Below are positions 327 through 34,300 of a DNA stretch of 34,300 nucleotides, one piece after another. Origin of the DNA: Salinivirgaceae bacterium. Lineage in GTDB: Bacteria > Bacteroidota > Bacteroidia > Bacteroidales > SZUA-534. The notes under the pieces were generated by a model. That model made no database searches. It was not told the origin of the DNA and was given only the letters and a program-made list of their open reading frames with translations. Each line of letters begins with the position of its first letter. Within the stretch, counting starts at the first letter, position 1. A program made the translations under genes and the position numbers. The stretch lies in NCBI GenBank assembly GCA_027858735.1, contig JAQICC010000174.1, positions 1-34,300 of the forward strand. The letters are read 5' to 3'.

Positions 327-1574
327 ATGGAATTAAAGAGAGTTGTAGTTACAGGAATTGGAACAATTAATCCATTAGGGAAAAACCTTGCCGAAACATG
401 GGATAGTTTGAAAAATGGTATTGGTGGTTCTGATAAAATTACACGCTTCGATGCGTCTAAATTTAAAACGCAATTTGCTTGTGAAGTAAAAAATTACAAC
501 CCTTTAGATTACTTTGACCGAAAAGAAGCACGCAAACTTGATATGTATGCACAATTTGCAATAATAGCTGCCACTGAAGCAGTAGAGGATGCTAAATTTG
601 ATGACCATATTGACAAAGACAGGGTTGGTGTTATTTGGTCGTCAGGTATTGGCGGGTTAATGTCTTTTCAAGACGAATGCTTAAATTTTGCAGCCGGTGA
701 CGGCACTCCTCGGTATAATCCATTTTTTATACCAAAAATGATTTCGGATATTGCTGCAGGGCAAATCTCCATTAAATATGGCTTTCACGGACCAAACTTC
801 GGAATTGTATCAGCTTGTGCTTCATCAACCAATGCTATTGGTGACGCCTTTAATTACATTCGCCTAGGTAAAGCTGATGTTTTTGTAACTGGTGGTTCTG
901 AAGCAACAATTTATGCTTCTGGTATTGGTGGTTTTAACTCAATGCAGGCACTTTCAACAAATAACGACGAATACAAAACAGCGTCTCGTCCGTTCTGTAA
1001 AACCCGCGATGGTTTTGTAATGGGCGAAGGCGGTGCCGGACTTATACTTGAAGAATACGAGCACGCCAAAGCTCGTGGAGCTAAAATTTACGCCGAAGTT
1101 GGTGGTGTTGGTTTCTCAGGAGATGCATATCATTTAACAGCTACTCACCCAGAAGGTTTAGGTGCTGCAAAATGTATGAATGAAGCTTTATTAGATGCCC
1201 AAATGCAACCAGAAAATCTTGACTATGTTAATGTTCATGGCACATCAACTCCAGTTGGAGATGTTCCTGAAACATTAGCCATTAAGAAGGTATTTGGTGA
1301 ACATGCTTACAAAATAAATATCAGTTCTACTAAATCAATGACTGGTCATCTTTTAGGAGCTGCCGGTGCACTGGAATCAATTGCTGTAATAATGGCAATT
1401 AATCACGGTACTATTCCTCCAACAATTAACCACAAGGAGAAAGACCCAAATATTGATGAAAAATTAAACTTGACCTTACATACTGCACAAAAACGCGAAG
1501 TTAGAGCTGCTTTAAGTAACACTTTTGGTTTTGGTGGCCACAATGCTTCGGTAATTTTTAAAAAATTTGAATAA
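327..1574 (+). CDS. fabF: 3-oxoacyl-ACP synthase II (KAS II)
   Basis: Condenses malonyl-ACP with acyl-ACP in fatty acid elongation. The 415 residues match the usual FabF length. The Cys-His-His triad is visible: Cys164 in VSACASSTNAIG, His304 in VNVHGTSTPVGD and His341 in KSMTGHLLGAAGA, with the conserved Lys336 just before the last. The C-terminus carries the usual FGFGGHNASVIF motif. It lies between acpP (36 bases upstream) and rnc (6 bases downstream), the standard Bacteroidota acpP-fabF-rnc operon. The cysteine and two histidines separate it from FabH (Cys-His-Asn). FabB is a less likely alternative given the length and the acpP linkage. Confidence 0.97.
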   Translation: MELKRVVVTGIGTINPLGKNLAETWDSLKNGIGGSDKITRFDASKFKTQFACEVKNYNPLDYFDRKEARKLDMYAQFAIIAATEAVEDAKFDDHIDKDRVGVIWSSGIGGLMSFQDECLNFAAGDGTPRYNPFFIPKMISDIAAGQISIKYGFHGPNFGIVSACASSTNAIGDAFNYIRLGKADVFVTGGSEATIYASGIGGFNSMQALSTNNDEYKTASRPFCKTRDGFVMGEGGAGLILEEYEHAKARGAKIYAEVGGVGFSGDAYHLTATHPEGLGAAKCMNEALLDAQMQPENLDYVNVHGTSTPVGDVPETLAIKKVFGEHAYKINISSTKSMTGHLLGAAGALESIAVIMAINHGTIPPTINHKEKDPNIDEKLNLTLHTAQKREVRAALSNTFGFGGHNASVIFKKFE

Positions 1575-21025: not shown

Positions 21026-21811
21026 ATGACTACATTGCATAGTACACAATTCACTAAAATGATAAAATTCCTGATATTAGTACTACTTGCTTTCAGCCAT
21101 TTATATTTAAAAGCAGAGGATGTTACAAAAGATAAGATTAGAATTTCTACCTCTCCTATGGCAACGGGCTCAATATCAGAAACTTTAGATTCTATTGATA
21201 TTGCATTAAACAATACAAACGAGGCTAATGAGTCTACTCAATTAGCTAAACTACTTTACAGCCATGAAAAAACAAACAAGGCCAAAGGCCAATTTCATAA
21301 TGTCTACGAAACTTTTTTAAAGACCATATATATTACAATAAATACGAACCAAGAAAACACTCAAGGACATTGCTATATAAGCCTAACAAATGTCAATTTT
21401 AGAATAGATGATTATGAACAATCGGTAAAACAGAATACTGAAGCCGTAAAAATTTTTCACCGCCAAAAGGATACATCAAACTTTATTAAAGCCTCAATTA
21501 TATTTGCCCAGATTTATATTAATCTTGAAAATTATTTTAATTATCTTGAAAACCTTAACAAATACATTAATATATTGATTAAAGATGCCACTCTTGAAAT
21601 TGAACCGCAGCGCATTAAAGATATTATGGATGTGGAATCGTATTATTCAACTTTTGGAACTAAGCACGAAAAAGGTAGCGGATTAGGGTTGGTTTTATGC
21701 CAACGGTTTATAAAAAAGAATGGTGGATCATTACATGTGGAGAGTGAAATTGGGAAAGGTTCCATATTTAGCTTTACTCTTCCTGCTCCCAAAATAGAAA
21801 CAGTTCACTAA
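21026..21811 (+). CDS. Histidine-kinase remnant: TPR-type N-terminus fused in frame to the ATPase end
   Basis: A 261-residue open frame with parts of a sensor kinase but not its catalytic middle. The better start is probably the internal ATG at 21059 (residue 12), which begins a signal peptide (MIKFLILVLLAFSHLYLKAED). Residues about 50-180 look like helical TPR repeats (KAKGQFHNVYETFLKTIYI, then DDYEQSVKQNTEAVKIF), as in periplasmic sensor regions of TPR kinases. From about residue 190 the sequence jumps to the last part of an HATPase domain: YYSTFGTKHEKG, G2 box GSGLGLVLCQRF, and VESEIGKGSIFSFTLP. The transmembrane helix, HisKA domain, phosphoacceptor His, N-box and G1 box are all missing. 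It cannot be a working kinase. The frame is intact, so the deletion is in frame or recent. Confidence 0.72.
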   Translation: MTTLHSTQFTKMIKFLILVLLAFSHLYLKAEDVTKDKIRISTSPMATGSISETLDSIDIALNNTNEANESTQLAKLLYSHEKTNKAKGQFHNVYETFLKTIYITINTNQENTQGHCYISLTNVNFRIDDYEQSVKQNTEAVKIFHRQKDTSNFIKASIIFAQIYINLENYFNYLENLNKYINILIKDATLEIEPQRIKDIMDVESYYSTFGTKHEKGSGLGLVLCQRFIKKNGGSLHVESEIGKGSIFSFTLPAPKIETVH

Positions 21812-23817: not shown

Positions 23818-24735
23818 CTAAAAGAACCTAGAAATCTTGGGTCTATCTTCTGTTTTTATCAAATCGTAGGTTAACATTATTTCATGCGAACCGCTTGATG
23901 CTTTTCGCATTTTGCTTAAGGTAATATCATAAGCATAGCCTAACCTAAATCTATTGTCTATTTGCACCTGAGTTATTATTGCAAGAGCATCACCAGTTCT
24001 ATATGATAAACCTCCCCAAATCATTTCTCGGAATAAAAAATTTGCTGTAATATCCACTGATGGTGGAGAACCTTTTACCATTTTACTATGTATTGATGGT
24101 TTAAACGTAATCTCCCTATTAATCTTGTAAACATATCCGCCAATAATAAAAAAGTGTCGCTCCTCACCTCCCGAAACATCATCAGTACCTTCGTATTTAT
24201 GGTTAACCATTTTTGGTGAGGATACCCCAAAATAAAAATCGTCGCGATAGGCAAATAAACCCAAGCCAAAATTAGGCATTAAATCTCCATAAACATCTTT
24301 TGAGAACTGTTCATCTTCCACACCCTCTTGCCCAATTTTTGAAAAGTCGGCTGAAAAAACCTTAAAACCTGCTTTTAAACCCATTCCAAGTTTAATACCA
24401 TAGGCAACTTTAATGTGGTAAGCATAATCAAAATACAAGTTGTTAGAACGCTCAGGTCCTACTTTATCGTAAAAATACGAAAGTCCCACTCCTGAATTAT
24501 ATTTAGGAAGGGGCACATCGGCGGTTAAAGAGTAAGTGTTGGGAGCCCCTTCAAAACCTACCCATTGAAACCTATTTACGGTCATAAACGACATATAGTC
24601 GGCACGGCCAATTGCTGCCGCATTAACCGACGACAAGTTAAACATGTATTGAGTATATAAAGGATCTTGTTGTGCTTTCAGCGTAAAAGTTGAAGCAACT
24701 AATAATAAAATGGCTATATGTTTCATGATCTTCAT
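23818..24735 (-). CDS. PorP/SprF family type IX secretion membrane protein
   Basis: Outer-membrane protein of the PorP/SprF family, needed in known systems for secretion or attachment of proteins with type B T9SS domains. The likely start is the ATG at 24735 (or 24726), which begins a signal peptide (KHIAILLLVASTFTLKAQ). The longer frame to 24813 would overlap the adhesin gene and puts 26 unlikely residues before the signal. The mature protein has the family opening QDPLYTQYMFNLSSVNAA, the FQWVGFEGAPNTYSL motif, GVGLSYFYDKVGP, and alternating barrel strands to LGYAYDITLSKM near the end. It follows the giant adhesin gene by 16 bases, almost certainly one operon. Confidence 0.92.
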   Translation of the reverse strand: MKIMKHIAILLLVASTFTLKAQQDPLYTQYMFNLSSVNAAAIGRADYMSFMTVNRFQWVGFEGAPNTYSLTADVPLPKYNSGVGLSYFYDKVGPERSNNLYFDYAYHIKVAYGIKLGMGLKAGFKVFSADFSKIGQEGVEDEQFSKDVYGDLMPNFGLGLFAYRDDFYFGVSSPKMVNHKYEGTDDVSGGEERHFFIIGGYVYKINREITFKPSIHSKMVKGSPPSVDITANFLFREMIWGGLSYRTGDALAIITQVQIDNRFRLGYAYDITLSKMRKASSGSHEIMLTYDLIKTEDRPKISRFF

Positions 24736-24751
24736 TTTTTCGTTATTCAAC

Positions 24752-27700
24752 TTAATACTTAATGTAAACATAACCTTTAACAGGCTTTTTCTGGTTCTCA
24801 ATAAACAATACATAAAAGTAGGTTCCTACAGGTAGAATGGTATTTGTTTGGCGCGATCGACCATCCCAGGTATTGTTGTAATTTTTTTGTGTAAATATTT
24901 TACTTCCCCAACGACTGTAAACCATCAACTCATTAATTGGATAGTCTTCCATATTTTGTATCACAAACAAGTCATTAATACCATCGCCATTTGGTGAAAA
25001 TCCATCTGAAATTACAAGGTTATCGATGCTGGTTATACCATTTACAGTAATGGTCAGCATTGCGTCAGCAGTACCACCATTATTATCTGATATGGAATAT
25101 AAAAACTCATCTTCCAAAATATCACCATCATCAAGATCATGAATTTGTTCAGATAGGGAATCAAGTACGAATTCGTATGTCCCAGTAGTATTCCAAGTTA
25201 AAGTTCCGTAATAACCAGTCATAGTTTTTTCATTGGCATTAGCATTTACACTTCTTACCTCAAGATTATTGGCATCTTCATCTGTATCATTTTCTAGTAA
25301 ATTCCCCGATACACTTCTTTCATCTTCATACATGCTATTTGCATCGTTATTTGCTATAGGATCATGGTTAACTGGTCTTTCGTCATTACCCATAATTATT
25401 ATGGTAAGCAAACTCTGAACTGACGGATTATCTCCATCGGATACCCGATGCGTAAAACTCTTCATTATCTGCTCGCCTGCATACAGCGTGCTTAACTCAC
25501 TATAGTTGTTATTTAAGCTAAAAGTGAATGAACCATCGTAATTCCAATCTAAAGTACCTTGTTCGCGCTTTAAATCAACTTCTTCATCAAGTTCCGATAC
25601 AAACTGGATAACCTGTAGTTGATCTCCATTTTCATCGCTATCGTTTGTTAACAAATTACCAGATACATCAACCTCTCCCTCAATAATATATACCGTATCA
25701 TTCGTAACAATTGGCACCATGTTTACTTCATCATCGGAACCTATAATTTCAACTACTAATTGAGCTCCACCAATACCTCCATTAACATCAGTTATTTGAT
25801 AATCAAATGTTTCGCTAAGCTTTTGTCCGGCATTTAGTAATTGAACTATTTCCAACGCCGAATTCAAATTATAAATGAAGGAACCGTCGCCGTTCCAATC
25901 AATAGTTCCAAAACTTCCGGCTGATTTTCCAGCTCCAAGACTAACTAGATTAACACTGGTAACATAGATACTGTCACCATCTATATCAGTATCGTTTAAT
26001 AGTAGATTCCCTGTAACTGTTGCCGCATCTTCATCAATACTTACCATATCATTTGTGGCAAGAGGATTATTATTTGCATCATCGTTACCCATTATTGTTA
26101 TATAAATCTTAGAAAATATTGAGGTATCAATACCATCAGAAATTGTATAGGTATAATAATCAACAATGGTATCACCAGTCATTAAATTTTGAACGGTGTC
26201 TAAATTATTATTTAAATAATACGTATAAGAACCTCCCGATACACACTGAACATAACCGAACTGACCAGAAATACTATCAATAGCAGATTGATCGTTTATT
26301 GACGAAACTAACAAAGTTCCATTTTCTGAATCTGTGTCATTCAGCAGCAAATTACCCGCTACTAAAACACTGTCTTCAAAAATATAATTAGTATCTGGTA
26401 AGGCTAATGGCAAATCGTTAACCGGATTAATGGTAAGGACAACAATAGCTTCGTTACTTTCCATTATTCCGTCGGACACTTTGTAAACAATAGTATCAGC
26501 AAAATTCTCAGATCCGTTGTGAATGTACTCGAATGATCCGTTGCTATTAAAAGTAAGTGAACCTTGTGTAACATTCGTCACCAATTCAGCAATAAGCTCC
26601 TTACCCTCTTCATCAATATCGTTTGCTAAAATGCCAGATGCTGATATGGTTAAGGTATCACCTTCATTTACGGAATATGCATCGTTATTGGCAACCGGTG
26701 CCATATTGGTTTCCCGAATATCAACTACTACTTTTGCCACATCATAATCGCCATCAACATCTATTAATGTATAGGTAAATTCATCGCTACCAACATACCA
26801 ATTTGCCGGTATATAGGTAATGGTTTTATCGGCATTTACTTTCACTATTCCATTGTTTGGATTTGTAGCTATAGAAATACCCAATAAACCATCATCAAGT
26901 CCTGAATCATTTAATAATACATCAATTGAAACTGGAATATTCAAGAAGGTAATGGTCGAATCATTCACAGCATCAGGTACTGCGTTGGTTTTCTTTACAT
27001 TAATTGTTACCGTAGCCGTATCGCAATCGCCATCGGCATCGCAAACGCGATAATTGAAACTATCCTCGCCTAAGTAATCAGTGCTAGGTGTATAAGTAAT
27101 GGTATTGTCAATATTGACTATAATATTGCCATTAGTGGGTAATGTGGTTGCTTCCACTACAATTCCACCGTCTTCAAGTTCGGTATCGTTAAATAATACA
27201 TCGATTTCAACCGGTAGGTTAATTGCGGTAGCACGCTTATCATCAAGGGCTACAGGTATATGGTTTTGTTTTTGGCTTACGGTTACATAAACCGTTGCCA
27301 TTGAATAATCACCATCAACATCGTTAACTAGATATTTTAAACTGTCATTACCTACAAACCAAGAGCTTGGAGTGTAAGTTATGGTTTTATTGGCATTTAC
27401 TACCGTTTTACCATGCTGTGGCTGAGTAAATACATAAACTCCCATTACGCCATCTTCAAGACCAGAATCGTTTGCCAGAACATTCACATTCACCGGGATA
27501 TTGATTTCTGTTGCAACGGAATCGTTCGCTGCCACAGGAATTTCATTGGTAAGTTTTACATTTATAGTAACTATAGCTGAATCAGAATCGTTTTGTGCAT
27601 CAGCTACTCTATAAGTAAAGCTATCGGTGCCTAAGAAATCGGTATCAGGTGTATACGATATGGTATTGCCAGCATTAACAACAATGGTTCCGTTTGCTGG

Positions 27701-30700
27701 TGTAGATAAAGCTGACAGTATAATTCCACCATCATCCAATCCAGAGTCGTTAATTAAAACATCGACAATTACCGGAGTATTAATCACTGTTCCTCTTGAA
27801 TCATCAACCGCTACTGGAAGATAATTAGGCTTTTCCGTAATGCTAATGTAAACGCTTGCCAATCCAAGGTCACCATTTAAATCAGTGACAACATATTGTA
27901 GGCTATCAGAACCCAAATACCATTTATACGGACTATAAGTTATGGAATTATCGGAATTTACCGTTACGGTTCCATTTACAGGTTGTTGATGAATGGTTAT
28001 GCTTTCCAAACCATCATCCAAACCAATATCATTATTCAAAATATGAACCACCAAATCGGTATTCATAAATGTTGAAACGGTATCGTTAAGCGCAGTAGGA
28101 ACGGCATTATTTTCTTTAACTTCAATGCTTACTTTTGCAGTGTCGCAATCACCATCGGCATCGCAAACGCGGTATTCGAAACTATCAAATCCCAAATAAT
28201 CAGCTGCGGGAGTATAAATAACAACATTACTGCTATTTACAGCAATGCTTCCATTGACCGGATTACTAACAGGTGTTACAACAATTCCACCATCTTCAAG
28301 ACCATAATCGTTAAATAATACATCAACCAATAAAGGACTATTGATGCTGGTTGCCCTGCTATCGTCAACCGCAACGGGAACAGCATTTTGTTTAGCATTA
28401 ATGGTGATGATCAAAGTTGCCTTGCCGCAATCGCCTTGTTTATCCTCCACCATATAAACCAGACTATCGACACCCACATACCAGCGAGCCGGAGTATAAG
28501 TTATGGTGTGGTCGGCATTTACAACAGCCGTACCATTAAGTGGCGCTGTGTAAATACTTAGTGAATCAACACCATCTTCAAGTCCCGTATCGTTGTTAAG
28601 CACATTCACACGAACTTTTGTATCCATTATAGTAGTTGCAGCATCATTGATGGCAACAGGAATGGAATTAAATTCCAGTACATAAATGGTTACGCTTGCG
28701 GTGTCTCCTTCCCCATCATCATCAAGCACACGGTAATTAAAGGTATCGGTACCCAAATAATCGGTATTAGGAGTATAAGTAATGGTATTATCGGAATTTG
28801 CTAAAACTGTGCCATTAGCAGGATCAGTAATTGCTTCAACCACGATACCTCCATCACCTAATCCTAAATCGTTCACCAATACATCAACAATACGAGCTGT
28901 ATTTATTGATGTTCCGCGAGAATCGTCAACAGCTATCGGTACTTCATTTGGTTTGGTTTGAATGGTTATATAAACCGTAGCAATACTGTTATCGCCATGG
29001 ATATCTTCCACCATATATTTTAAACTGTCGGTTCCCAAATACCAGGTTGCCGGTGTATATGTAATGGTATGATCAACAGTATTGACTTCCACACTACCGT
29101 TCAATGGATCGCTGAAAATAGTTACTTGCTTAATTCCATCTTCCAGACCAAGGTCGTTTTGGAGCACATTAACCATTATAGCCGTATTCATATTGGTTAT
29201 AACTGTATCGTTTACAGCGAGTGGTTCTGCGTTGGTTTCGTTAACCTCAATGGTAACTGTGGCGTTGTCGCATTCATTATCAGAATCGCACACTGAATAG
29301 GTAAAGGTATCGGTGCCTAAGTAGTCGGTGTTTGGTGTGTAGGTAATGGTATTGTCGGTTTTAACCTCAAGTGTACCATTAGCAGGTGGTGTGCCTGAGC
29401 TTACAACAATGCCACCATCTTCAAGACCTAAATCGTTGATGAGCACATCGACAACAACAGACTTATTAATGGCAGTACCTCTTGAATCGTCAACGGCTAC
29501 CGGAATGGCATTTTGTTTGCTTGTTATGGTTATGAAAACTTCGGCAACACTTTTGTCGCCTTCAGTATCTTCCACCACATATTCAAAGGCATCGGTACCC
29601 ACATACCAATTATAAGGGGTGTAAGTTACCGTATGATCAGCATTCACAACTACCGCCCCATTTTTAGGCTGGCTGTATATACCTACCGAATCGACACCAT
29701 CGTTAAGGTCGGTATCGTTATTCAGCACATTAATGGCTACGGAATGATTCATTTGGGTTGTAGCCGTATCGTTCACTGCAACAGGTTCGTAGTTATGGAA
29801 TTTAACGGTTATTGTTACTGTTGCGGTATCAGCATCACCATCAGCATCTGCAACCCTGTAATTGAAAGTATCGGTGCCTAAATAATCGGCATTTGGTGTA
29901 TAAGTAATCGTACTATCACCATTTACTACTATTAATCCATTTGTTGGAGTTGTAGTGTTTGTAACTATAATGCCGCCATCTTCAAGTCCGGTATCGTTGA
30001 ATAATACATCAACTGTAACGGCTGTATTAATTGATGCACCTCTGCGATCGTTTACGGCAAGCGGCACAAAATTTGGCCTTTCACTAATGGTGATAATTAC
30101 CGTTGCCATGTCAGGGTCACCATTTTCATCAGCAATAACATAGTGCAGACTATCAGTTCCCACATACCAGTTTGCCGGAGTGTAACTTAAAGTATTATCG
30201 GCGTTCACAACTACAGCGCCATGTTTTGGCTGAAGTTTAATGTATAAGGTATCCAAACCATCTTCTAAACCTAAATCGTTGGTTAGTACATTTACATCGA
30301 AACCGGTATTCATGTAAGTTGAAACCGTATCATTAAAGGCCAATGGTATGGCATTAGTCAGATTCACATCCATGGTTACAGTTGCGGTATCGCAATCGCC
30401 ATGCTTATCACAAACACTATAGTCAAAGCTATCGTAACCTAAATAATCGGTATTTGGAGTATAGGTAATGGTATTATCGGTAATATTTACCACAATACCA
30501 CCATTCGATGGCAACATTGAGGTGCTTGTAACTACAATACCGCCATCTTCAAGTCCGGTATCGTTAAGCAGTACTTTGATTTTCCTTGCTGTATTAATGG
30601 CTGTAGCTCTTTCATCATCAACAGCTACTGGCACAAAGTTTGGTTTTTCAATGACCTTAACCACAACGGTAGCCAAACTGAAATCGCTATCAACATCAGA

Positions 30701-33700
30701 AATTTCGTAGGTAAATGTTTGCGTTCCTTTATAATAATTAGCCGGAGTATAAGTAATGGTCAAATCATTATTAACAATAGCCTGACCAAAAGCCGGTTTC
30801 CTTTTGATAATTAGGGTATCAAGTCCTTCTTCAAGACCGGTATCGTTATTCAGAACATCTATATTAATGGCTGTATTCATGTAGGTTTCTACCGTATCGT
30901 TTATAGCAAGAGGTTCAATATTAATACCTTCTTTCACAGTTACAGTAACCGTGGCGTTATCCGAATCGCCATTGGCATCGGTAATGGTATATTCAAAAGT
31001 GGCGGAGCCAATAAAATCCTGAGCTGGAGTAAAGGTTATAATGGTGTCATCAACTACTAATGTTTTACCCTGTAGTGGATCGGGAAGTAATGATACAGAA
31101 ACAATAATAGGAACATCTTCCAAACCGGTATCGTTATGCAATACTTCAATTGCTCGTGGGGTATTAAAGCTGGCTGCCACGCGATCATCTTTGGCTACAG
31201 GAATGGCATTTGGTCGTTCAATAATATCAACTGTAACAAGTGCTGAATCCCAATCTCCATGAAGATCGACAGCACGGTAGGCAAAAGTTATTTGACCAAT
31301 AAACAAATTTTCAGGTGTATAGGTAATGGTATTGTCGTCGTTAATTTTTGCCATACCAAGGCTTGGTTCAGAATGGATTGCCAAGCTGTCAAACCCGTCT
31401 TCCAAGCCAGTTACATAACTCATTACATCAATTACTTTTGGGGTGTTCATATGGGTAGTGGCACTAACATCGCCTGCAATAGGTAGATGATTAACTACTC
31501 CATAGGGTAGAACTGTTACGGTAACCAATGCGCTATCGGTATCGGTATCAGCATCGGTAACTTTATACTTAAAGGTTGTAGTGCCGCTAAATCCGTTAGC
31601 TGGTGTAAAATCAAATGTATTGCCATTTAATTCCACTTTTCCTTCTGTTGCAAGAGGAGGTGTACTAATGCTTACGGTTATGGGTTCATTGTCTAAACCG
31701 GTATCATTATAAAGCACATTAATGTTTGTTAGCGTTTCGTATTCCGCTGCTAGAGATAAGGGGTTAGCAACCGGATGCACATCTGTATTTACTGTAATAG
31801 TAACAGTAGCTTCGGCATGCACTTCAGGAGTATCTCCAAAATTCCAAACTTGGTAATCTATGGTAACCTCTAAACCTTCTTCAATGGCATTGGGAGTATA
31901 GGTCATTAATCCTGTTAGCGGATCAAGAGATACTGTACCTGTGCCTGTGCCTGTGCCTAAATCAGCAAGATATATATCAGCTCCTGGTAAAAAGTCATCA
32001 TTCAAAAGAATATTGACTGATTCTGTTTCTCCCATTGTTACAACCAATACATCGTTAAGTGCAGTAGGAACTAATGGGTGAGGATCGGTAGTGTCAGGAT
32101 TGCCGTCATTATCATCATCCGTATCTATGTCATCCGGGATACCATCATTATCCGTATCCAATTTCACTTCAACTATCCAATCTTCGCTATCAGAATTATT
32201 ATCTGCGTCAACTACATTGATAGTTAACATATATCTATTGTCCAAATCGGCATCAGTTGGATTCTCATAATCTTTCGCTACCATGCTAACAATACCGGAA
32301 TCGGCATCGATGGTAAAATCATCGGAATCAATTCCAGATAAACTATAAGTTATATTCCCGATAGGAACTCCTACAATTACCGGTTTATTACTAACATAAG
32401 CAAAGCCTTCAACAACCGTGGAATCATTTATTTCAGCAATAGTATAGTTTGATATTTCAGGTACATCAAGAATGGTAACCGTCCAGTTTTCAATATCGGA
32501 GTTACCATCCCCATCAATAGCAATAAGGGTTAATTCATATACATTATTTGAATCTGCATCAACCGGATTTTCAAAACTTTGTGCAATCATATCAACAACT
32601 CCCGTAGTTGGATTAACGCTAAAGTCTGATGCATCAGCGCCGCCCAAGGAATAGGTTAAAGTTGGAACAGGTGTACCTGAAATTACAGGAGTTTCACTTG
32701 TATAGGCACTATTTTCATTAACATTTACATCTATAATTTCTTGAATATTAAAATCTACTATTTCAACCAAATCCTGAATAGTTACCAGCCAATCTTCGCT
32801 ATCAGAATTATTATCATCATCGGTTACTATAATCGTTAAGGAATAAATATTATTTAGGTCGGCATCCTCAGGATTTTCATAGTTTCTGGCAACCATTGTT
32901 ACTACACCAGAATTCATATCAATTGAGAAAGCACTTGCATCATCTCCAAATATAGCATAACTAAAATTTCCTATAGGAGTGTCGCCAGACAAAACAGGAG
33001 TTTCACTTATATAGGCAGCGTTTTCATCAAGATCAAAATCGTCAATGGGATTTATAGTAAAATTCGATTCTTCTTCTACATCAATTACAGTAAGTGTCCA
33101 TGGCTCATCATCGGTATTGCCGTCCGCATCTGTTGCAATTACAGATATTTCATAGACATTATCAAGATCGGCATCGGTAGGTAATTCAAAATTATGAGAT
33201 GCCATGTTAACGACTCCTGTAGAAGCATTAACAGTAAATTCCGCTACATCTGCACCTGTCAATGAATAAGTAACTATTCCAATTGGGCTTCCAGTAATGG
33301 TTGGAGCCAGTGTAACATAAGTGCCATTTTCGTTTACTGAAACATTCGCAATTTCATCGATGCTAAAACTTATAACTTCAATAACATCAACTACAGTTAC
33401 TATCCAATCTTCCGTATCATCATTGCCATCAGCATCAGTGGCGGTAATGGTTAATTCATATATATTATCAGTATTGGCATCTACTGCACTTTCATAATCT
33501 CTGGCAACCATACTTACTATGCCATTAGATGCGTTGATGGTGAAATCTGATTCATCCGCTCCTCCTAAGGTGTAAGTTAAACTTCCGATTGGTGAATCGC
33601 CGGTTAATGCAGGGGTTGCTCCGGTGTAAACAGAATTTTCATTTACACTTGCATCGCCAATGGCATTTATGGTAAAAGTAGCTGATTCTATAACATCATT

Positions 33701-34300
33701 TACGGTTACTGTCCAACCTTCTGTATCATCATTGCCATCAGCATCAGTAGCGGTAATGGTTAATTCATATATATTATCGGTATTGGCATCTGCTGCACTT
33801 TCATAATCTCTGGCAACCATACTTACTATGCCATTGGATGCATTGATGGTGAAATCTGATGCATCGGCTCCTCCTAAGGTATAGGTTAAACTTCCGATTG
33901 AAGGTCCTGATATCGATGGCAGAACACTTGTATAAACACTATTTTCATTAATATTTAAATTTACAATTTCATCAATGGTAAAATTAGCTACTTCTATAAC
34001 ATCATTTACAGTTACTGTCCAGGCTTCTGTATCATCATTACCATCGGCATCGGTGGCGGTTATACTCAATTCATAAACATTATCGGTATTGGCATCTTCA
34101 GCATTTTCATAGTTACGAGCTACCATGCTTACAACACCTGTCGTAGCATTGATCGTAAAATCAGAAGCATCGCTTCCTCCGAAACTATAAGTTACACTGC
34201 CAATGGGCGTATCGCCGCTTAATGAAGGTGTTGCTCCGGTGTAGGCATTATTCTCATTAACATTTGCGTCCCCTATGGCATCAATGGTAAAGCTTGCAGC
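24752..34300 (-). CDS. Giant multidomain adhesin with T9SS type B sorting domain (5' end beyond the window)
   Basis: An open frame of 3182 codons plus stop, still open at the window edge, so the signal peptide and true start lie outside. From the N-terminal side it has seven cadherin-like repeats of about 102 residues, an Asp-rich calcium-binding linker (DTDNDGIPDDIDTDDDNDG), about twenty Big_9/cadherin-like domains of about 94 residues in alternating A and B types, four VCBS-like repeats of about 112 residues, and a final CHU_C-type domain (GFSPNGDGINDLF to VKGYVYIKY) that marks it for type IX secretion. The many DxDxD-type loops imply calcium-stiffened rods. With PorP/SprF directly downstream it resembles the SprB-SprF pair, so a role in adhesion or gliding is likely but unproven. 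Confidence 0.93.
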   Translation of the reverse strand, partial: AASFTIDAIGDANVNENNAYTGATPSLSGDTPIGSVTYSFGGSDASDFTINATTGVVSMVARNYENAEDANTDNVYELSITATDADGNDDTEAWTVTVNDVIEVANFTIDEIVNLNINENSVYTSVLPSISGPSIGSLTYTLGGADASDFTINASNGIVSMVARDYESAADANTDNIYELTITATDADGNDDTEGWTVTVNDVIESATFTINAIGDASVNENSVYTGATPALTGDSPIGSLTYTLGGADESDFTINASNGIVSMVARDYESAVDANTDNIYELTITATDADGNDDTEDWIVTVVDVIEVISFSIDEIANVSVNENGTYVTLAPTITGSPIGIVTYSLTGADVAEFTVNASTGVVNMASHNFELPTDADLDNVYEISVIATDADGNTDDEPWTLTVIDVEEESNFTINPIDDFDLDENAAYISETPVLSGDTPIGNFSYAIFGDDASAFSIDMNSGVVTMVARNYENPEDADLNNIYSLTIIVTDDDNNSDSEDWLVTIQDLVEIVDFNIQEIIDVNVNENSAYTSETPVISGTPVPTLTYSLGGADASDFSVNPTTGVVDMIAQSFENPVDADSNNVYELTLIAIDGDGNSDIENWTVTILDVPEISNYTIAEINDSTVVEGFAYVSNKPVIVGVPIGNITYSLSGIDSDDFTIDADSGIVSMVAKDYENPTDADLDNRYMLTINVVDADNNSDSEDWIVEVKLDTDNDGIPDDIDTDDDNDGNPDTTDPHPLVPTALNDVLVVTMGETESVNILLNDDFLPGADIYLADLGTGTGTGTVSLDPLTGLMTYTPNAIEEGLEVTIDYQVWNFGDTPEVHAEATVTITVNTDVHPVANPLSLAAEYETLTNINVLYNDTGLDNEPITVSISTPPLATEGKVELNGNTFDFTPANGFSGTTTFKYKVTDADTDTDSALVTVTVLPYGVVNHLPIAGDVSATTHMNTPKVIDVMSYVTGLEDGFDSLAIHSEPSLGMAKINDDNTITYTPENLFIGQITFAYRAVDLHGDWDSALVTVDIIERPNAIPVAKDDRVAASFNTPRAIEVLHNDTGLEDVPIIVSVSLLPDPLQGKTLVVDDTIITFTPAQDFIGSATFEYTITDANGDSDNATVTVTVKEGINIEPLAINDTVETYMNTAINIDVLNNDTGLEEGLDTLIIKRKPAFGQAIVNNDLTITYTPANYYKGTQTFTYEISDVDSDFSLATVVVKVIEKPNFVPVAVDDERATAINTARKIKVLLNDTGLEDGGIVVTSTSMLPSNGGIVVNITDNTITYTPNTDYLGYDSFDYSVCDKHGDCDTATVTMDVNLTNAIPLAFNDTVSTYMNTGFDVNVLTNDLGLEDGLDTLYIKLQPKHGAVVVNADNTLSYTPANWYVGTDSLHYVIADENGDPDMATVIITISERPNFVPLAVNDRRGASINTAVTVDVLFNDTGLEDGGIIVTNTTTPTNGLIVVNGDSTITYTPNADYLGTDTFNYRVADADGDADTATVTITVKFHNYEPVAVNDTATTQMNHSVAINVLNNDTDLNDGVDSVGIYSQPKNGAVVVNADHTVTYTPYNWYVGTDAFEYVVEDTEGDKSVAEVFITITSKQNAIPVAVDDSRGTAINKSVVVDVLINDLGLEDGGIVVSSGTPPANGTLEVKTDNTITYTPNTDYLGTDTFTYSVCDSDNECDNATVTIEVNETNAEPLAVNDTVITNMNTAIMVNVLQNDLGLEDGIKQVTIFSDPLNGSVEVNTVDHTITYTPATWYLGTDSLKYMVEDIHGDNSIATVYITIQTKPNEVPIAVDDSRGTSINTARIVDVLVNDLGLGDGGIVVEAITDPANGTVLANSDNTITYTPNTDYLGTDTFNYRVLDDDGEGDTASVTIYVLEFNSIPVAINDAATTIMDTKVRVNVLNNDTGLEDGVDSLSIYTAPLNGTAVVNADHTITYTPARWYVGVDSLVYMVEDKQGDCGKATLIITINAKQNAVPVAVDDSRATSINSPLLVDVLFNDYGLEDGGIVVTPVSNPVNGSIAVNSSNVVIYTPAADYLGFDSFEYRVCDADGDCDTAKVSIEVKENNAVPTALNDTVSTFMNTDLVVHILNNDIGLDDGLESITIHQQPVNGTVTVNSDNSITYSPYKWYLGSDSLQYVVTDLNGDLGLASVYISITEKPNYLPVAVDDSRGTVINTPVIVDVLINDSGLDDGGIILSALSTPANGTIVVNAGNTISYTPDTDFLGTDSFTYRVADAQNDSDSAIVTINVKLTNEIPVAANDSVATEINIPVNVNVLANDSGLEDGVMGVYVFTQPQHGKTVVNANKTITYTPSSWFVGNDSLKYLVNDVDGDYSMATVYVTVSQKQNHIPVALDDKRATAINLPVEIDVLFNDTELEDGGIVVEATTLPTNGNIIVNIDNTITYTPSTDYLGEDSFNYRVCDADGDCDTATVTINVKKTNAVPDAVNDSTITFLNIPVSIDVLLNDSGLDDGLLGISIATNPNNGIVKVNADKTITYIPANWYVGSDEFTYTLIDVDGDYDVAKVVVDIRETNMAPVANNDAYSVNEGDTLTISASGILANDIDEEGKELIAELVTNVTQGSLTFNSNGSFEYIHNGSENFADTIVYKVSDGIMESNEAIVVLTINPVNDLPLALPDTNYIFEDSVLVAGNLLLNDTDSENGTLLVSSINDQSAIDSISGQFGYVQCVSGGSYTYYLNNNLDTVQNLMTGDTIVDYYTYTISDGIDTSIFSKIYITIMGNDDANNNPLATNDMVSIDEDAATVTGNLLLNDTDIDGDSIYVTSVNLVSLGAGKSAGSFGTIDWNGDGSFIYNLNSALEIVQLLNAGQKLSETFDYQITDVNGGIGGAQLVVEIIGSDDEVNMVPIVTNDTVYIIEGEVDVSGNLLTNDSDENGDQLQVIQFVSELDEEVDLKREQGTLDWNYDGSFTFSLNNNYSELSTLYAGEQIMKSFTHRVSDGDNPSVQSLLTIIIMGNDERPVNHDPIANNDANSMYEDERSVSGNLLENDTDEDANNLEVRSVNANANEKTMTGYYGTLTWNTTGTYEFVLDSLSEQIHDLDDGDILEDEFLYSISDNNGGTADAMLTITVNGITSIDNLVISDGFSPNGDGINDLFVIQNMEDYPINELMVYSRWGSKIFTQKNYNNTWDGRSRQTNTILPVGTYFYVLFIENQKKPVKGYVYIKY
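24755..25033 (-). other. Type B (CHU_C) T9SS C-terminal sorting domain
   Basis: The last 93 residues of the adhesin. ISDGFSPNGDGINDLFVI opens it, then ELMVYSRWGSKIF, and ILPVGTYFYVLF before the closing VKGYVYIKY. This is the gliding-motility/CHU_C pattern that directs the protein through the type IX secretion pore, with the help of PorP/SprF proteins. Confidence 0.9.
25034..26416 (-). repeat. Four VCBS-like repeats of the adhesin
   Basis: Four units of about 110-117 residues. Each has a GNLLxNDTD motif near its start (AGNLLLNDTDS, TGNLLLNDTDI, SGNLLTNDSDE, SGNLLENDTDE), a middle YGTLTWN-like strand, and DGxxSFIYNLN-type strands. They lie just before the sorting domain. Confidence 0.8.
26417..32071 (-). 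repeat. Alternating A/B Big_9/cadherin-like domain array of the adhesin
   Basis: About twenty domains of 93-96 residues. Type A opens with PVAVDDSRGTxIN, carries NDxGLEDGGIVV and DYLGTDTFxYRV. Type B opens with PxAxNDTVxTxMNT, carries NDxGLEDGVDSLxI and WYVGTDSLxYxVED. A and B alternate strictly for domains 4-19. The first two domains are diverged and the last one (26417-26704) is a capping type. Cysteine pairs mark every second A domain, giving a four-domain period of 1122-1125 bases. Confidence 0.85.
31933..31958. repeat. Hexamer microsatellite in the adhesin
   Basis: CTGTAC followed by three CTGTGC units, encoding a Gly-Thr run (GTGTGTG). Gain or loss of a unit would keep the frame. Confidence 0.6.
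32081..32161 (-). other. Asp-rich calcium-binding linker (thrombospondin type 3-like)
   Basis: The segment DTDNDGIPDDIDTDDDNDG then NPDTTDPHP has the spacing of thrombospondin type 3 calcium-binding repeats. It separates the cadherin-like array from the Big_9 array. Confidence 0.75.
32162..34300 (-). repeat. Tandem cadherin-like repeats of the adhesin (continuing past the window)
   Basis: Seven repeats of about 101-103 residues, the first cut by the window edge. Each has xFTIxxIxDxxVNENxxY, then LGGADASDFTINxxxGIVSMVARDYE, and IYELTITATDADGNxDxExWTVTV. The calcium-binding DxDGN loop recurs in most copies. The copies around 33410-33600 and 33720-33900 are nearly identical at DNA level, offset by 309 bases. 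Confidence 0.85.

Follow-up and report, generated by a model that had tools for sequence, protein, structure and literature searches.

The 34,300-nucleotide stretch of DNA analysed here (the window), an entire contig (C58) of a Salinivirgaceae genome of 5.99 Mb in 452 contigs (98.9% complete), contains a giant adhesin open reading frame (ORF) whose product is, in our assessment, probably a stalk in which an optional cross-strand disulfide closes the base of the F–G hairpin in some Big_9 A domains. This reading is carried by the joint presence or joint absence of two cysteines across related domains and by their predicted place at the ends of two adjacent strands. In related arrays the pair favours the last, C-terminal A domain, and this bias is the least ordinary part of the finding.

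Paired cysteines in Big_9 A domains

The ORF (24752..34300, minus strand, as are all its domains) encodes 3182 amino acids (aa), its N-terminus being incomplete and its frame open at the contig edge, and includes ten cysteines, eight of which make up four V-C-D-x4-C-D pairs in an array of alternating A and B domains (d3 to d17 measuring 93-95 aa apiece). The pairs lie in A domains d4 (VCDKHGDCD; 30347..30631, Cys codons 30410-30412 and 30392-30394), d8 (VCDSDNECD; 29225..29503, Cys codons 29288-29290 and 29270-29272), d12 (VCDADGDCD; 28100..28378, Cys codons 28163-28165 and 28145-28147) and d16 (VCDADGDCD again; 26978..27256, Cys codons 27041-27043 and 27023-27025). Of these, d16 closes the A series of the array, a position at which relatives also keep the pair. 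Between them stand the Cys-free d6 (VADADGDAD; 29786..30064), d10 (VLDDDGEGD; 28661..28939) and d14 (VADAQNDSD; 27539..27817), and all of these motifs, first reported in a preliminary description of the sequence, were confirmed. The accompanying statement that every second A domain is paired applies to the seven canonical A domains, to which the alternation is confined, and fails for three earlier, diverged A-like domains, which are Cys-free (giving the string '...C.C.C.C'). First cysteines of successive pairs are 374, 375 and 374 residues apart. The two cysteines outside the pairs are residues 1958 and 2686; cysteine is thus otherwise nearly absent from this part of the protein, as described earlier, but not from its probable N-terminal part on another contig, which holds nine more. 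The seven A domains share pairwise identities of 58-71%, and those bearing cysteines do not form a clearly separate class, d8 being closest to the Cys-free d10 (68%).

Related loci were fetched by peptide patterns without cysteine, one genome per species, yielding 46 loci, to which L017, L021, L022, L026 and L027 were added from the window's own genome and two related genomes. A profile search gave 350 domains in total; 330, from 50 loci, lie outside the window. Among these 330, both cysteines were present in 73 domains (68 distinct segments, since near-copies are included, and counting four domains with misaligned longer loops; 10 rows were gapped in one of the two cysteine columns) and neither in 253, with a further four carrying one cysteine elsewhere in the segment. 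Not a single domain had exactly one cysteine at the two sites, against about 114 expected under independence, and the co-occurrence is therefore far beyond chance. The pair is accordingly conserved well outside the window, in 27 loci with at least one copy, and it survives changes in loop length, the turn between the cysteines comprising 5 residues in 56 domains, 7 in 16 and 8 in one. The window's own 20 domains comprise four with the pair, one with a single cysteine and 15 with none. Such a both-or-neither distribution is characteristic of a disulfide within the domain, being expected where one cysteine alone is useless or harmful. A phylum-wide DNA motif pattern, matched in 99 of 296 genomes, was set aside: many of the listed genomes gave matches to the reversed control as well, and many match lengths were incompatible with a reading frame.

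An AlphaFold2 model of d16-d17, built from a 55-row alignment and with strand ends taken from DSSP, reached a mean predicted local distance difference test (pLDDT) score of 95.7 and a predicted template modelling (pTM) score of 0.82. Strand F spans residues 63-72 and strand G residues 78-88, so that the modelled Cys 72 is the last residue of F and Cys 78 the first of G, with a five-residue Asp-rich turn between them; they would form the terminal cross-strand pair if the ladder runs from 63-87 to 72-78. A four-domain model of d14-d17 (mean pLDDT 94.3, pTM 0.64) gave equal hairpins in the Cys-free A14 (63-72, 78-88) and in A16 (250-259, 265-275). Structure prediction, which the preliminary description had put forward as a check, thus places the cysteines on adjacent strands of one domain (72 and 78) in both models. 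The model is all-beta, an Ig/cadherin-like beta-sandwich, and this shared fold in itself shows no function. Its single-domain structural matches include a phage collar sheath (8fwc_0; Z 12.8, 85 residues, root-mean-square deviation (rmsd) 1.7) and FrhA (9ybq_B; Z 10.7, 89 residues, rmsd 2.0), while cadherin chains scored Z about 8.4-8.8, mostly spanning both domains with high rmsd, and Marinomonas ice-binding adhesin domains are among further structures of similar fold.

On this basis, we propose that the ORF would encode the stalk of a fibrillar adhesin of Bacteroidales that the type IX secretion system (T9SS) exports as one of its type B substrates, with the PorP/SprF neighbour probably anchoring it at the outer membrane. 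Each cysteine pair would form a cross-strand disulfide at the F–G hairpin base of one A domain, pinning the Asp-rich five-residue turn, which may bind calcium and which the bond may shield from unfolding or proteolysis. Because the strand ends are equal in the Cys-free A14 and in A16, the hairpin is predicted to form even without the bond, and the disulfide would act as an optional stabiliser. The loop staple envisaged in the preliminary description is hence supported both by the modelled strand ends and by the both-or-neither occurrence in the 330 related domains.

Position of the pairs along the arrays

The window's frame and 26 others have at least three domains; from these 27, 14 were chosen for a regular succession of A and B domains towards the C-terminus (L036 and L032 being read as part of L107 and L108, longer stretches of their contigs), and with L106 added the set came to 15 such arrays. 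Left out were L105, which is cut off by the end of its contig, and L039, L043, L044, L047, L049, L050, L051, L059, L060, L062, L069 and L073, which have no regular A-B array or are cut. All but one of the 15 arrays terminate in sorting-domain-like sequence, L042 running off its contig. Under the widest rule for A domains, the pair is present in the last A domain of 14/15 arrays, in 10/27 of the first two A domains and in 7/61 of the middle ones, and stricter rules gave 14/15 for the last A domain versus 4/54 or 3/48 for the middle. Most relatives hold the pair at the last A domain and often also at the first or second, and in L029, the nearest relative, three A domains are visible with the pair in the last alone. 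Since the last A domain adjoins the sorting domain, the staple would be kept chiefly in the domain that lies nearest the cell or membrane.

Alternation fares differently. Given four cysteine-bearing domains among seven, strict alternation has an arithmetic chance of 1/35, for a pattern that was chosen post hoc. At least four A domains are present in 11 of the 15 arrays, none of which alternates throughout; the survey of homologous arrays thus did not recover the pattern, and the interval of about 375 residues noted in the preliminary description is regular in the window (374-375) without being a conserved property. Locus L030 reads CC.CCC, with the pair in 5/6 A domains, and L044, outside the 15 arrays, has it in every one of its last six domains. 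On these comparisons, the every-second-domain spacing is a local peculiarity of the window, where pairs in two interior A domains as well as in the first and last give the array its alternating look.

With the hairpin columns removed, few columns were left for a tree of 73 A domains (13 arrays), in which only 6/70 inner branches were starred. The cysteine state changes 8 times on this tree versus a shuffled mean of about 18.5 (0/500 shuffles as low, although near-copies add to the clustering), which argues that a domain and its cysteine state tend to be inherited together. Furthermore, eleven cysteine-bearing domains, mostly last A domains, group together with a Shimodaira–Hasegawa-like approximate likelihood ratio test (SH-aLRT) value of 92 on a branch that was not starred. 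Re-amplification of the window's interior A domains from its last A domain fits the tree and may account for the history of the interior cysteine copies; more broadly, a conserved staple in the last A domain with lineage-specific gains and losses elsewhere seems to fit the sequences best. A four-domain super-repeat (A*-B-A-B) as the source of the alternation was undetectable: with the hairpin columns excluded, identity within versus between classes was unremarkable, ranking 7/35 (A) and 9/35 (B) for protein and 26/35 (A) and 21/35 (B) for nucleotides. Protein identity at four-domain distance was slightly above that at two or six (for B, 55.3 versus 51.2 and 51.0), and the nucleotides lacked such a signal.

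A separate class of cysteines occurs in six relatives, in which three or four interior A domains hold one cysteine in the first strand (R/V-G-C-S-F/Y), for which the domain shows no partner. These residues recur every 188-189 residues (376-378 where one copy is skipped) over ORF residues 2214-2778 of L034, 1318-1883 of L035, 2214-2778 of L040, 1514-2079 of L042, 3059-3623 of L106 and 3062-3628 of L107, and L106 has an extra lone cysteine in a B domain, at residue 3570. Such sites are candidates for intermolecular cross-links or attachment, and are the best candidates for the cross-link idea. A broader scheme would treat the adhesins as position-coded covalent rods, with staples at the array ends, above all in the membrane-proximal A domain, with the interior lone cysteines of one group cross-linking fibres every 188 residues and with the window's alternation as another setting; we hold this scheme to be improbable.

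Competing explanations and the oxidation of the stalk

Several points weigh against the proposed staple and its placement. Within the window, both-or-neither occurrence has a sole exception, residue 1958 (28427-28429), a lone cysteine occupying the second cysteine site in d11, a B domain (28379..28660), and the pair is absent from the solved-structure sequence matches, among the matches listed as alignments. The difference between last and other A domains (p below 1e-7 at all three A-domain thresholds) comes from a test that pools related species and is uncorrected for ancestry. The underlying counts also vary with the A-domain rule: another rule gave 13/15 for the last A domain and 6/61 for the interior (Fisher p 1.5e-8), a count that took an odd domain beyond the L037 array as the last A and omitted weakly scoring A domains. 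Locus L045 departs from the last-A rule, starting C.C and then showing none. Moreover, VKOR and DsbB have no match in the window's genome, so that neither is available there as a candidate to re-oxidise a DsbA-like protein, and many of the relatives come from environmental metagenome-assembled genomes, whose habitat may be anoxic.

The genome does have a single DsbA-like candidate, the Thioredoxin_4 protein C79, whose site reads C-G-F-C. Scanned alone, it scores 26.9 bits against PF01323 (cut-off 25.6), and to state that the genome has no DsbA would thus be wrong, even though no PF01323 match was listed in a six-frame search of this whole genome, the one genome covered by the DSBA search. Among eight genomes that have the adhesin or relatives of it, Thioredoxin_4 was matched in 4 and VKOR in 1. 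Formation of the bond in the cell is accordingly plausible on gene content. Adjoining the DsbA-like Thioredoxin_4 gene, L146 (1685-2068) encodes a small Cys-rich protein, by eye a possible lipoprotein, which might be the DsbA-like protein's substrate. In one relative (G115), the product of L147 (435-2054), 539 aa long, matches VKOR and has, by eye, a thioredoxin-like end with C-S-F-C; this VKOR-type protein may be an alternative disulfide-forming enzyme, and it was not found in the window's genome.

The lack of a DsbB or VKOR match, together with the absence of the pair from most A domains of the relatives, would also suit the explanation that the pairs are reduced thiols in life, functionless and kept by descent. 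Neutral decay should, however, leave domains with a single cysteine, and these number 0/330 outside the window and one inside it, so that we consider this explanation quite unlikely. Slightly less credible still is that each pair binds a transition metal such as zinc or iron, together with the Asp-rich turn and without any disulfide: Cys and Asp ligands do lie close together (C-D-x4-C-D) and the joint loss of both cysteines would also fit, but a turn between strand ends, with loops of 5, 7 or 8 residues, would make it harder to maintain a constant metal geometry, and cysteine pairs spanning a hairpin in exported proteins usually oxidise. Least credible is the earlier suggestion that the pairs tie adjacent adhesin molecules together at regularly spaced points of the rod, which could draw on the 374-375 residue spacing in the window protein and on the lone cysteines that relatives hold at 188-residue spacing at another site, but which is unsupported for the pairs because each cysteine has a partner six residues off across the same hairpin, their occurrence is strictly both or neither and their spacing is not conserved.

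For the Big_9 adhesin stalks of Bacteroidota, the result supplies an easy criterion, namely whether an F–G hairpin has both cysteines or none, by which covalently stabilised domains can be found, and it suggests that stabilisation is commonest in the domain closest to the cell. Should the bond form, one must ask by what route a surface protein becomes oxidised in a bacterium in which DsbB and VKOR have no match.

Gene context and comparison with known adhesins

By its profile matches, the encoded protein is a Big_9/cadherin-like surface protein and a T9SS type B substrate with an adjacent PorP/SprF carrier gene. Earlier cadherin-like repeats are followed by the alternating A/B Big_9 array; then come more cadherin-like domains and, at residues 3097-3180 (24761..25012, minus strand), a sorting domain of the CHU_C / T9SS type B kind. 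Over the array, Big_9 (PF17963) scores 974.2 bits (cut-off 23.6) in 23 stretches of the profile search, and the sorting domain reaches 93 bits for CHU_C (cut-off 27) and 51.4 bits for TIGR04131, T9SS type B (cut-off 35). Directly downstream lies the PorP/SprF family gene (23818..24813, minus strand; PF11751 256.4 bits, cut-off 22.3; TIGR03519 256.6, cut-off 90.55), whose longest frame overlaps the end of the adhesin; judged by eye, an ATG at 24735 or 24726 is a likelier start. Because the only cysteine in the 331-aa frame, residue 3, lies upstream of these likelier starts, the carrier has no C-terminal twin-cysteine.

Contig C304 (3-3707, minus strand) probably carries the N-terminal 1235 aa of the same protein. 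It begins with repeats matching C58, and the join between the two contigs would follow from the DNA match and the repeat type. The C304 part has nine cysteines, its first 935 aa have no Pfam match, and the protein start resembles a Sec signal peptide by eye. Elsewhere in the window, the frame 21026-21811 fuses an N-terminal part that looks repeat-like by eye to the ATPase end alone of a histidine kinase (HATPase_c), and may be a sensor kinase remnant.

No description of the cysteine pair in Big_9 domains was found among the titles and abstract openings listed from the open-licence PMC literature. The array resembles the Big_9 (PF17963) / tandem-95 / cadherin-like stalks of fibrillar adhesins, with which it shares the family, above cut-off, and the tandem stalk role; the available account of these stalk domains describes no cysteine pair, 'disulfide' occurring 0 times in its main text (PMC8286594). 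As a T9SS type B substrate with a PorP/SprF carrier, the adhesin is also like the SprB-SprF gliding system of Flavobacterium johnsoniae, in which, according to the accessible text, a key disulfide joins the C-terminal twin cysteines of SprF to GldK (PMC12635249). The window's SprF-like protein differs from that SprF (PMC12635249) in having no twin cysteines in its C-tail, and so the window adhesin may be static rather than gliding.

Disulfides in adhesin stalks are themselves already published, both as cross-strand bonds in giant adhesin domains (PMC10619420) and in other stalk domains (PMC12617251). One close parallel is the giant tandem Ig-like adhesin of Mobiluncus mulieris, whose domain 47I bears a Cys6887-Cys6895 disulfide that joins adjacent strands of the same sheet and that was detected by mass spectrometry, with partial occupancy in crystals (PMC10619420). 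In the portions of that source available, however, the organism is Gram-positive, ester and isopeptide bonds are also present, 47I is an isopeptide domain rather than a Big_9 domain, and the figure legend places the bond between strands 2 and 5 rather than in an F–G hairpin (PMC10619420). CLIPPER (DUF11) likewise offers an internal disulfide in a stalk domain of a Gram-negative adhesin, formed by C-T-T-C; as described in the accessible text, this tetrapeptide bond lies within one strand of a CnaA-like fold and is accompanied by an isopeptide bond (PMC12617251), unlike the cross-strand pair proposed here for the Big_9 A domains.

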